Both the position numbers and the translations under genes were made by a program. Of a stretch of DNA of 64,000 nt, positions 41,196 to 44,676 are shown one piece after another. Every line of letters begins with the position of its first letter. The stretch's first letter is position 1. Origin of the DNA: Candidatus Alloclostridium intestinigallinarum (lineage in GTDB: Bacteria; Bacillota; Clostridia; Christensenellales; UBA3700). The notes below the pieces were generated by a model. It had not been told where the DNA came from, made no database searches, and saw only the letters and a list, made by a program, of their open reading frames with translations. Location of the stretch: the NCBI GenBank assembly GCA_904382605.1, contig CAJFJA010000001.1, positions 130,793 through 194,792 on the forward strand, read 5' to 3'.

Positions 41196-42232
41196 GGTTT
41201 TTGCAGGATCTCACCTATGAAGAGGTTGAAAAAACGGTCCTTGACTGCGGTATGCCGAAATATCGCGCAGGGCAGCTTTTTTCATGGATAACGCGCGGAG
41301 CGAAGTACGGTGAGATGAGCAATATTCCGCAGTCGCTTAAAGACTTTCTGGTAAGTCAAGGGTATAACGACGAGCCTGTCCGCATTATCAGAACGTTGGA
41401 ATCAAAGCTTGACGGCACGGTTAAATTTTTGTACGCACTGCAAGATAATAACGTAATCGAGGGCGTGCTTATGAAATATAAGTACGGCAATACTTTATGC
41501 GTATCCACACAGGTGGGATGCAGAATGAATTGCGCATTCTGCGCTTCCGGACTTGACGGGCTGGTGAGGAATCTGGCTTCGGGCGAGATTTTGGGACAGA
41601 TAATCGCGGTAAACGGCACATACGGCGCGGGAACGGTGGGCAATGTGGTGCTGATGGGTAGCGGAGAACCGCTCGACAATTATGACAATACGGTAAAATT
41701 TTTGACCAACGTTTCCGATCCGCGCGGACTGAATATCTCAAAGCGCGGGGTTTCGCTTTCAACGTGCGGTTTATGCGATAAAATGCGCCTTCTTTGCGAT
41801 CAGGGCTATACGCCCACTTTGACGGTATCCCTGCACGCGCCCAACGATGAAATACGGAAAAAGATAATGCCGATAGCCGTCAGATATTCCGTAAGCGAAG
41901 TGGTCGACGCCGCAAAATATTACTTTAACGTGACGGGTCGCAGGGTGATATTCGAATATTCGCTGATAAAAGGGGTAAACGACTCCATGGATTGCGCAAA
42001 GGAACTCGCGCGCCTGATAAAAGGCTTTCCCTGTCATGTAAATCTGATTGCATTGAACAGCGTGAAGGAAAGGGGACTTGCCGGAACGTTGAAAGAGCAG
42101 GTGGAGCAGTTCAGAGCGTGTTTGGAAAAGTTAAACGTAAGCGTCACTCTGCGCCGCAGTATGGGCGCCGATATAGACGGGGCCTGCGGTCAGCTGAGGC
42201 GTAAATTCATAAAAGCCGGAGGCGGAGAATGA
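41192..42232 (+). CDS. rlmN: Dual-specificity 23S rRNA/tRNA methyltransferase RlmN
   Basis: RlmN is a radical-SAM enzyme that makes m2A2503 in 23S rRNA and m2A37 in some tRNAs. The 346-residue protein has the radical-SAM cluster CRMNCAFC (CxxxCxxC) and the conserved GCRMNCAFCASGLDG. A C-terminal cysteine in DIDGACGQLR would be the methyl-carrying residue. It overlaps the next gene, rsgA, by 4 bases. In many relatives prpC and prkC would lie here. Confidence 0.96.
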   Translation: MRFLQDLTYEEVEKTVLDCGMPKYRAGQLFSWITRGAKYGEMSNIPQSLKDFLVSQGYNDEPVRIIRTLESKLDGTVKFLYALQDNNVIEGVLMKYKYGNTLCVSTQVGCRMNCAFCASGLDGLVRNLASGEILGQIIAVNGTYGAGTVGNVVLMGSGEPLDNYDNTVKFLTNVSDPRGLNISKRGVSLSTCGLCDKMRLLCDQGYTPTLTVSLHAPNDEIRKKIMPIAVRYSVSEVVDAAKYYFNVTGRRVIFEYSLIKGVNDSMDCAKELARLIKGFPCHVNLIALNSVKERGLAGTLKEQVEQFRACLEKLNVSVTLRRSMGADIDGACGQLRRKFIKAGGGE

Positions 42233-43113
42233 AGCGCAGATTTGTCGGTCAGGTCGTAAAAGGCGTGGGCGGAGTCTATACCGTCAGCGACGGGGAAAGC
42301 ACGATAAAATGCTACCCCCGCGGCAAACTGCGCAGGCAGGGCGAAATATATATAGGCGATATGGTGGAAGTGGAGTGCGACAAGGAGGGTATCATTGAAA
42401 GCGTAAAGCCGAGGAAATCCTGTCTTGTGCGCCCGTATGTGGCGAATATCGACGCGGTAATAATCGTGATTGCGCCCGTGCCGAAGCCTGACTTCACCCT
42501 TGTGGACAAGCTGCTGATCGGTTCGCTCGAACAGGGAATAGAGGCGTTTATCGTGATAAACAAGTGCGAACTGGACGGAGCGAAAGAGCTTGAAGAATAT
42601 GTGCGCAATGATTACCGCGATCAGGCGGAGATATTCGCGACGTCCGTCGATGAAAATATCGGAATACAGAACCTGTGCAAAAGAATAGGAAGTATGTTCG
42701 TCTGTATGGCGGGACAGTCGGGGGTAGGTAAATCATCCATACTCAACGCCTTGTTGGGTGAAGATAAGTGCGCAATCGGCGATATTTCGGTGAAAAGTGC
42801 ACGTGGAAGACATACTACCCGCCACGTCGAAATATTCAGAAGTGCATATGGCGGACAGATTGCCGATACCTGCGGCTTTTCAATGCTGGAAATGCCGGTT
42901 ATCGACCCCGCCGTACTGAGGGAATACTATCCCGACTTTGAACAATTTGCGGAAAACTGCAAATACCGCGACTGTCGCCACGATTGCGAAGAAGATTGCG
43001 GAGTACGCAGCGCCGCTTCGGAGGGAAAACTGTCCGGCGGCAGGTATGAACGCTATTTGAAATTATATAAAGATGCTGTAAAAAGGTGGAATAACAGATA
43101 TGGAAACCGTTAA
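42229..43113 (+). CDS. rsgA: Small-subunit ribosome biogenesis GTPase RsgA (CpgA)
   Basis: RsgA is a circularly permuted GTPase that checks late 30S maturation. It has 294 residues. The N-terminal OB fold (about 1-65) is followed by G4 INKCELDG, G1 GQSGVGKSSILNALLG and G3 DTCGFSML. A C-terminal zinc knuckle (CKYRDCRHDCEEDCGV, about 244-259) is present. Its end overlaps rpe by 14 bases. Confidence 0.95.
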   Translation: MKRRFVGQVVKGVGGVYTVSDGESTIKCYPRGKLRRQGEIYIGDMVEVECDKEGIIESVKPRKSCLVRPYVANIDAVIIVIAPVPKPDFTLVDKLLIGSLEQGIEAFIVINKCELDGAKELEEYVRNDYRDQAEIFATSVDENIGIQNLCKRIGSMFVCMAGQSGVGKSSILNALLGEDKCAIGDISVKSARGRHTTRHVEIFRSAYGGQIADTCGFSMLEMPVIDPAVLREYYPDFEQFAENCKYRDCRHDCEEDCGVRSAASEGKLSGGRYERYLKLYKDAVKRWNNRYGNR

Positions 43114-43744
43114 AATATCTCCGTCGCTTCTTTCGGCGGATTGGATGAATCTGGAACAGGAATTGAAAAATCTTTCCGCGTGGGGTGCGGATATGGTGCA
43201 TTGCGACGTCATTGACGGATTGTTCGCGCCAAATATAACGTTCGGAATGCCTATGATAAGCGCTCTTAAACGTAAGTCAAAACTTCCGCTTGACGTTCAC
43301 CTGATGATAGTCAAGCCGGAAAGATATATAGACAAATTCATCGCCGCGGGAAGCGATACCATCGCTTTTCATCCCGAAGCGAGCGATAAACCGCTGGAAG
43401 TGCTCGACAAGATAAGGAAAAGCGGAATAAAGGCGGGTATAGCTATAAATCCCGATATTTCCGCAAGCGTAGTAAAGCAATATCTCGATAATATCGACTA
43501 CATTCTTCTTATGGGTGTGTTCCCCGGATTCGGAGGACAGAAATTCATTCCCGAAGTCATGGATAAGATAGATGAGTGCAAAAAATATACAGTAGGCAGG
43601 AATATCTATATCGAGCTTGACGGCGGAGTTACCGTAGAGAATATCGGTGAAATGAAAAGGCGCGGACTTAATGCCGCCGTTGCGGGAAATGCGGTTTTTG
43701 CGGCGGCCGATCCTGCCGGGGCGGTTAAAATGTTAAAGGCTTAA
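43100..43744 (+). CDS. rpe: Ribulose-phosphate 3-epimerase
   Basis: Rpe interconverts ribulose-5-phosphate and xylulose-5-phosphate in the pentose phosphate pathway. The 214-residue TIM barrel has KISPSLLSADW, CDVIDGLFAPNITFG, DVHLMIVKPERYI, MGVFPGFGGQKFIPEV and ELDGGVTVENI, which carry the metal-binding His and Asp residues. It is the last clear housekeeping gene of this operon. Confidence 0.97.
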   Translation: METVKISPSLLSADWMNLEQELKNLSAWGADMVHCDVIDGLFAPNITFGMPMISALKRKSKLPLDVHLMIVKPERYIDKFIAAGSDTIAFHPEASDKPLEVLDKIRKSGIKAGIAINPDISASVVKQYLDNIDYILLMGVFPGFGGQKFIPEVMDKIDECKKYTVGRNIYIELDGGVTVENIGEMKRRGLNAAVAGNAVFAAADPAGAVKMLKA

Positions 43745-43793
43745 TCACCATATTTTTCTTTCGGTCATATCTATGATTGACAGGAGGGAAAAT

Positions 43794-43874
43794 ATGGTTA
43801 TTGCGTGTATAAATCCGCCGGCTCCGATAAAACGGGTTTTAAGGTTGATATTCGTACATAAGGATAAAAACTAG
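43794..43874 (+). CDS. spoVM: SpoVM-like 26-residue peptide (candidate)
   Basis: A 26-codon ORF with a near-perfect AGGAGG (43782-43787) 6 nt before its ATG, 49 bases after rpe. B. subtilis SpoVM is also 26 residues, and its gene lies between rpe/thiN and rpmB, exactly the position here. Aligned without gaps, Ile6, Pro9 and Arg17 of SpoVM coincide with the same residues here, and positions 12-20 (IKRVLRLIF) can form a basic amphipathic helix. SpoVM marks the forespore membrane by sensing curvature and anchors SpoIVA and the coat. The match is short, so homology is an inference from position, length, ribosome site and a few residues. Confidence 0.6.
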   Translation: MVIACINPPAPIKRVLRLIFVHKDKN

Positions 43875-43922
43875 TATATACGCAGGAAATGCATAAAAAA
43901 TACACTATTTGACGAAAAATAT

Positions 43923-43942
43923 GCGCACCGTTTCCGGTGCGC
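43923..43942. terminator. Bidirectional terminator between rpe/spoVM-like ORF and rpmB
   Basis: A perfect 8 bp stem GCGCACCG / CGGTGCGC with a TTTC loop. A TTCATTTTTT tail follows on the plus strand and ATATTTTTC on the minus strand, so it can serve the converging units. Confidence 0.8.
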
Positions 43943-43954
43943 TTCATTTTTTAA

Positions 43955-44146
43955 TTACGCTCTGCTGACTTTGCCGCTCTTGAGGCACTTGGTGCAAACG
44001 TAAACGCTTTCCGTTGCGCCGTTTTCTTTAACGACCCTCACTTTTTGAACGTTCACTCCCCAACTTTTTCTGTATTTACGGTTGGAGTGGCTCACTTTAT
44101 TACCGCTGAGCTGAGTTTTATTGCATACGCTGCATACCCTAGACAT
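43955..44146 (-). CDS. rpmB: 50S ribosomal protein bL28
   Basis: A 63-residue bL28 starting MSRVCSVCNK, with CSVC near the N-terminus and CTKC near the C-terminus: the zinc-binding four-cysteine form. NKVSHSNRKYRKSWGVNVQ is the rRNA-binding core. The ATG at 44146 follows GGAGGTG, so the longer in-frame start upstream is not used. It is the only minus-strand housekeeping gene here, as in B. subtilis, where rpmB also opposes its neighbours. Confidence 0.96.
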   Translation of the reverse strand: MSRVCSVCNKTQLSGNKVSHSNRKYRKSWGVNVQKVRVVKENGATESVYVCTKCLKSGKVSRA

Positions 44147-44325: not shown

Positions 44326-44676
44326 ATGGCAGTCAAAACATCCAATATTTACGGCAAAATAACGATTTCCGACACATCGGTTGCAAAGATAGCGCATTAT
44401 TCCGCTATTGATTGTTACGGTATTTCCGATCTTGTGTCGCGCCGTTTTACTGACAGCCTCGTGGAGCTTTTCAATAAGTCTTCCGCCGCTAAGGGCGTCA
44501 GAGTGGAAACTGTCAATAATAAAATAAATATCGACTTATACGTTATATTAAAGGACGGAATCAATATAAATGCGGTAAAGGAATCGGTTGCCGCCACCGT
44601 CAGATATAACGTTGAAACTTTTACGGGCATGCGTGTCAACAAGATAAACGTGAACGTTGTCGGCGTAAGAGTGTGA
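44326..44676 (+). CDS. Asp23/Gls24 family protein (YloU-like)
   Basis: A 116-residue Asp23/DUF322 protein, a family tied to envelope stress and alkaline-shock responses in Bacillota. The typical pattern is ITISDTSVAKIAHYSAIDC at the N-terminus, then VNNKINIDLYVILKDGININ and VNKINVNVVGVRV. No ribosome site is visible ahead of the ATG, and the promoter -10 lies only 6-9 nt upstream, which suggests a leaderless mRNA. fakA starts 11 nt after the stop behind its own AGGAG; the pair is conserved downstream of rpmB. Confidence 0.92.
   Translation: MAVKTSNIYGKITISDTSVAKIAHYSAIDCYGISDLVSRRFTDSLVELFNKSSAAKGVRVETVNNKINIDLYVILKDGININAVKESVAATVRYNVETFTGMRVNKINVNVVGVRV

Follow-up and report, generated by a model that had tools for sequence, protein, structure and literature searches.

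A divergent spoVM gene with a candidate sigma-K-type promoter between rpe and rpmB in an uncultured Christensenellales-type family

Introduction

SpoVM is a very small peptide of roughly 23–30 residues. In Bacillus subtilis, SpoVM requires Ile6 for binding to SpoIVA and Lys2 for cortex formation, which is blocked by mutation of Lys2. The promoter sites of sigma-E and sigma-K are alike, the textbook form of the sigma-K −10 element is CATAnnnTA, and dpaA is controlled by sigma-K in B. subtilis. Pro9 is the sole completely conserved residue of SpoVM, and the action of Lys2 depends on CmpA, a protein missing from Clostridia (PMC5607322); Lys2 was therefore not treated here as a defining SpoVM trait. 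In C. difficile, SpoVM is largely dispensable and SpoIVA encases the forespore without it (PMC5607322). Sigma-E controls spoVM in C. difficile (PMC5607322) as well as in B. subtilis (PMC517825); we regarded this as a trait of regulation that does not define SpoVM. The C. difficile promoter signatures are ATA-N16-CATA for sigma-E and an AC at −35 for sigma-K, and dpaAB is sigma-K dependent in this species (PMC3789822). Whether clostridia in which searches had failed might possess distant forms of SpoVM was a question posed by Galperin et al. (2012; PMC3533761).

We analyzed a 64,000-nt stretch of the genome of Candidatus Alloclostridium intestinigallinarum (contig CAJFJA010000001.1; hereafter the window), in which an earlier note had pointed to an unannotated ORF as a divergent SpoVM. 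We assign a probability of about 0.93 to the explanation that this ORF represents spoVM, as an orthologue, in an uncultured family of the Christensenellales type, with binding to the membrane and SpoIVA and late sigma-K timing as its conditional parts.

Gene and locus

The ORF (43794–43874, + strand) comprises 26 codons (MVIACINPPAPIKRVLRLIFVHKDKN), extends from ATG (43794–43796) to TAG (43872–43874), and is present as a single copy in its own genome. The Shine-Dalgarno sequence AGGAGG (43782–43787, + strand) is followed by 6 nt (GAAAAT) before the ATG. The 26-codon frame between rpe and rpmB given in the earlier note was exact on direct reading, and the AGGAGG that it had called near-perfect was also exact. 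The name spoVM was given to this frame on the basis of its conservation in the family and its link to canonical SpoVM, both described below. An upstream ATG at 43773 (33 aa) was rejected as the start; it has no Shine-Dalgarno sequence of its own, and the inspected ORFs of relatives contain no matching start.

Upstream of the ORF lie rsgA (42229–43113, + strand), which encodes a GTPase (TIGR00157, 203.5 bits; cut-off 100), and rpe (43100–43744, + strand), which encodes ribulose-phosphate 3-epimerase, was named by gene order and similarity, and ends 49 nt before the ATG. Downstream, rpmB for ribosomal protein L28 (43955–44185, − strand) is convergent with spoVM, and an asp23/yloU-like gene (44326–44676, + strand), named from the B. 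subtilis gene order, lies beyond it; these four genes served as syntenic markers. A GC-rich hairpin with a T run (43923–43952, + strand) between the convergent spoVM and rpmB is a probable terminator, and the folding energy of the surrounding region (43915–43960) was −15.9 kcal/mol (z −4.1). Nearly all relatives, like the window, lack prkC at the spoVM locus.

Conservation and selection

Homologues were found in 34 of the 46 genomes of the family by single-sequence search and in 41 by profile search; two of the latter were partial or at a contig edge, leaving 39 full-length genes. All 30 inspected ORFs of this GTDB family, which encode 23–30 residues, retained the frame, the ATG start, a strong Shine-Dalgarno sequence and the core C-[IV]-[ND]-P-P-x-x-[IV]-K-x-x-L-R, and each was adjoined by rpe and/or rpmB as far as the contig reached. 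Residues M1, I3, C5, P8, P9, K13, L16 and R17 were invariant in the family alignment; Pro9, which is also present in canonical SpoVM, was conserved in 20/20 aligned sequences. Position 6 is Ile in the window peptide and Ile, Val or Phe in relatives, and position 2 is Val or Leu in the window's genus and Lys or Arg in other genera.

The pooled pN/pS values of codons 2–18 were 0.24, 0.21 and 0.11 in three genera, the first being the window's own genus. Furthermore, third codon positions took 64% of the changes (permutation p 5e-5). The ORF is a real gene under purifying selection. The earlier note had asked for purifying selection (dN/dS below 1) and for a frame conserved in close relatives, and both were found. 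The basic amphipathic helix that it proposed, which in SpoVM follows Pro9, is less clear than the note stated: the helix moment of the window sequence was reached by 16% of shuffles, which is not significant, and that of the sister-genus consensus by 0.06%, which is.

Relationship to known SpoVM

We compared the peptide with B. subtilis SpoVM (PDB 2MVH, NCBIfam NF011327, Pfam PF08183) and with clostridial SpoVM (NCBIfam SpoVM_broad, NF033436). It shares with the B. subtilis protein the length of 26 residues and, as the earlier note had stated, Ile6, Pro9 and Arg17, together with a location downstream of rpe and adjacent to rpmB and the presence of SpoIVA in the genome. In contrast, Lys2, Lys7, Lys10, Phe11 and Gly13-Gly14 of B. 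subtilis are replaced by Val2, Asn7, Ala10, Pro11 and Lys13-Arg14, respectively, and Cys5 and the Pro8-Pro9 pair of the window peptide also differ. The locus itself differs in lacking thiN between rpe and spoVM and in carrying a sigma-K-type instead of a sigma-E promoter. In regards to clostridial SpoVM, including that of C. difficile, the likeness covers the length range, Pro9, the hydrophobic residues at positions 3, 6, 12, 15 and 16, and the basic residue at position 17; C. difficile spoVM, unlike the window gene with its sigma-K-type promoter, is under sigma-E control.

Neither the window peptide nor its 33-aa extension matched NF033436, NF011327, PF08183 or any other model of Pfam or NCBIfam. 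Against the canonical SpoVM profile, the score of the window peptide was equalled by 68 of 2000 shuffles. The lack of a model match would suit a conserved small basic membrane peptide, toxin-like or a leader, that is unrelated to SpoVM and lies between rpe and rpmB by chance, as would the NPP motif and Cys5, which are unlike B. subtilis. Against such a peptide stand the relatives. Sister-genus peptides (MRIICINPPKFIKAILRVFKRKD and others) scored above all 2000 shuffles against canonical SpoVM. Bridging loci found through Rpe, which are labelled as uncultured Clostridia or Christensenellaceae and include Candidatus Ornithoclostridium and Pumilibacter, gave a graded series of order-level intermediates, namely MKIICIKPPRFLRGILRLIFRKHLN, MRIICVKAPKFLSGVLRLFCKKEKRVS, MKIVCVKAPKFLSGLLRFFVRKRER and then MRIVCVKAPRFLSGFLKLLFCRKKQKDGE of the cultured Pumilibacter intestinalis. 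The A1 profile matched MKIICIKPPRFLRGILRLIFRKHLN (33 bits) and MRIICVKAPKFLSGVLRLFCKKEKRVS (30 bits), and the bridging peptides matched SpoVM_broad with E values from 8.2e-5 to 3.6e-7, all under the 31-bit cut-off (MKIICIKPPRFLRGILRLIFRKHLN, 8e-5; MRIICVKAPKFLSGVLRLFCKKEKRVS, 1.7e-5; P. intestinalis, 6.8e-7 and 29.2 bits). Moreover, when the profile of the family was matched against that of canonical SpoVM, 25 columns aligned without gaps (E 3.9e-8). With the shared gene position, and with the absence of the gene where sporulation genes are absent, these matches make an unrelated peptide very improbable. Homology of the ORF to SpoVM is supported by the transitive sequence chain, the profile–profile match and the gene position.

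The peptide of P. intestinalis (L160) bridges the two groups in that it shares Cys5, Pro9 and the rpe-spoVM-rpmB order with the window, but retains a canonical-looking KAPRFLSG core and has thiN directly upstream of spoVM. The order rpe-thiN-spoVM-rpmB, which is that of B. subtilis, occurs in Pumilibacter and other relatives; thiN, for thiamine diphosphokinase, was located between rpe and spoVM at L125:4648-5247 and L160:4636-5280 and is absent from 43100–43874 of the window.

No relative tested reached the 31-bit cut-off of NF033436, which, as the cut-off of a curated model, we treated as an annotation threshold and not as a defining property of SpoVM. SpoVM_broad is strict for the class Clostridia: in a class-wide sample it passed its cut-off in 9 of 291 genomes, with matches below the cut-off in 48 more.

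Sporulation genes

In the window's own genome, the matches to SpoIVA (598.8 bits; cut-off 459.9), Spo0A (268.3; 200), SigE (361; 339) and SigK (288; 252) exceeded their cut-offs. SigG and SigF were identified as best matches below cut-off, SpoIIGA gave a weak match below cut-off that adjoins sigE, and SpoIIIAA was present. Spo0A, SigF/E/G/K, SpoIIGA, SpoIIIAA and SpoIVA form a core set, which agrees with the sporulation capacity that the earlier note had drawn from the ORF; spoIVA and sigF/E/G/K, which it had named for a search, are all present at these scores, and the genome does not lack spo0A.

The presence of SpoVM was associated with that of SpoIVA at both levels, with 37/2/2/5 for the family (Fisher p 3e-4) and 77/3/169/48 for the order (Fisher p 9e-5). 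The order-level association is one-sided in that strong A1 matches were missing from many genomes with SpoIVA. The A1 matches are weak in many genomes of the order presumably because A1 is tuned to the window's family. Within genus g6 (G041–G045), four genomes lack SpoIVA, Spo0A, SigF, SigK and SpoIIIAA and also lack SpoVM, and their sister G044 keeps all of these genes, including a more canonical SpoVM (MKIICITMPKFLGKILGIFVRKK). There appears to have been a recent loss of sporulation in the four genomes.

Some genomes showed other combinations. G004 and G015 keep spoVM and spoIVA, and SigE/SigK or SpoIIIAA were not found in them; G004, a close relative with an assembly that is 88% complete, showed no SigF/E/G/K and no full Spo0A. 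An assembly gap is possible in both, because the genes for SigE, SigK and SpoIIIAA fall inside a 37-kb stretch of the window's genome. G031 and G036 gave no SpoIVA match in the presence of SpoVM, Spo0A and SigF-like genes.

That the ORF arose by chance or is a decaying spoVM remnant in a lineage no longer sporulating is extremely improbable given the pN/pS of 0.24 within the genus, the conserved frame, and the intact sporulation sigma factors and Spo0A of the genome, even though short ORFs abound, sporulation genes were lost in part of one sister genus, and G004 keeps spoVM and spoIVA with the genes listed above not found. The frame under purifying selection, the synteny, the transitive and profile–profile homology and the co-occurrence with SpoIVA support a divergent SpoVM, as the earlier note had proposed.

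Promoter

A candidate sigma-K-type promoter (43746–43769, + strand) begins directly 3' of the rpe stop codon and consists of a −35 CACC (43746–43749), 16 nt, and a −10 CATA (43766–43769), which corresponds to AC-N17-CATA. The earlier note had expected a sigma-E type promoter upstream, but the conserved element is of the sigma-K type: AC-N17-CATA was found before 29 of 30 spoVM genes of the family (0.49 expected by shuffling), with the −10 about 26–39 nt before the ATG, and ATA-N16-CATA before none of the 30, counts that come from related genomes and are not independent. A weighted sigma-E consensus scan of the spoVM upstream regions gave scores near background. The sigma-K pattern is post hoc, because it was seen on viewing the aligned upstream regions after that scan; spoIVA and dpaA serve as controls. 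ATA-N16-CATA preceded 10 of 12 spoIVA genes of the same family and AC-N17-CATA none; AC-N17-CATA preceded 5/5 dpaA genes, which were confirmed together with dpaB and come from genera g2 and g3 only (L275–L279). A second sigma-E control, spoIIIAA (AC-type site in 0/30), was not counted, because a single match to the strict sigma-E pattern was obtained and the start was uncertain in several genes.

Further members of the family (G014, G016, G018 and G044) also carry an AC-type site before spoVM. None of the genomes of genus g3, where thiN is directly upstream in 2/3 genomes, has such a site there, and AC-N17-CATA was not recognized before spoVM in relatives with thiN between rpe and spoVM. The −10 elements of the family mostly lack the TA of the textbook CATAnnnTA. 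At the presumed −35 specificity residue, SigE has Gln (GISQSYIS) and SigK has Arg (DISRSYIS); the role of this residue has been described (PMC517825).

The element could instead be the lineage's variant of a sigma-E site, or a second promoter, with sigma-E-directed spoVM expression of the kind known from B. subtilis and C. difficile. The CATA −10 is common to both sigma factors, and no clear ATA-N16-CATA site was found upstream of spoIVA in the window's own genome. This possibility is doubtful in view of the family's spoIVA genes (10/12 with the sigma-E pattern, never AC-N17-CATA), of dpaA, which depends on sigma-K in C. difficile and B. subtilis and here has AC-N17-CATA in 5/5 cases, and of the 0/30 count before spoVM. 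Since spoVM is sigma-E-driven in those two species and preceded by AC-N17-CATA here, we infer a shift of spoVM to sigma-K in this lineage.

The dipicolinate synthase genes dpaAB were convincing only in g2 and g3. In most of the family, the window's genome included, dipicolinate may therefore be produced by another route or be absent.

Discussion

From known SpoVM biology, we infer that the product binds the membrane and SpoIVA. By analogy, the 26-residue basic peptide would bind the convex side of the forespore membrane, which faces the mother cell, by means of an amphipathic helix kinked at Pro9, and would contact SpoIVA, dependent on Ile6, at the base of the spore coat. This coat-anchoring role may be minor, because SpoVM is largely dispensable in C. 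difficile.

Judged from the promoter elements, spoVM would be transcribed by sigma-K in most of the family and hence after SpoIVA, which would be sigma-E-driven. With SpoVM late and SpoIVA early, SpoVM could not be the first SpoIVA anchor in this lineage and, unlike in B. subtilis, would not first recruit SpoIVA. It would instead act on the already formed SpoIVA shell to mature, fasten or stabilize the coat base rather than to start it. A later-acting SpoVM is consistent with the encasement of the forespore by SpoIVA without SpoVM in C. difficile (PMC5607322). We consider the odds slightly better than even that SpoVM moved from early sigma-E to late sigma-K control while SpoIVA stayed early, with a coat base that is built without SpoVM and fastened or matured later, and with a lineage-specific Cys5/Asn7-Pro8-Pro9 core.

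The peptide is a divergent variant of known SpoVM, and the sigma-K-type spoVM promoter of the family is previously unreported. Many families of one order carry SpoVM versions under all model cut-offs, and surveys therefore under-count SpoVM. In one host set, the majority of Christensenellales genomes were classed as non-sporulating by the SpoMAG tool (PMC12536801); the divergent SpoVM supports sporulation potential in Christensenellales. If the sigma-K timing is true, SpoVM would be uncoupled from the step that first places SpoIVA; the fact that C. difficile can nearly dispense with SpoVM had raised this question (PMC5607322).
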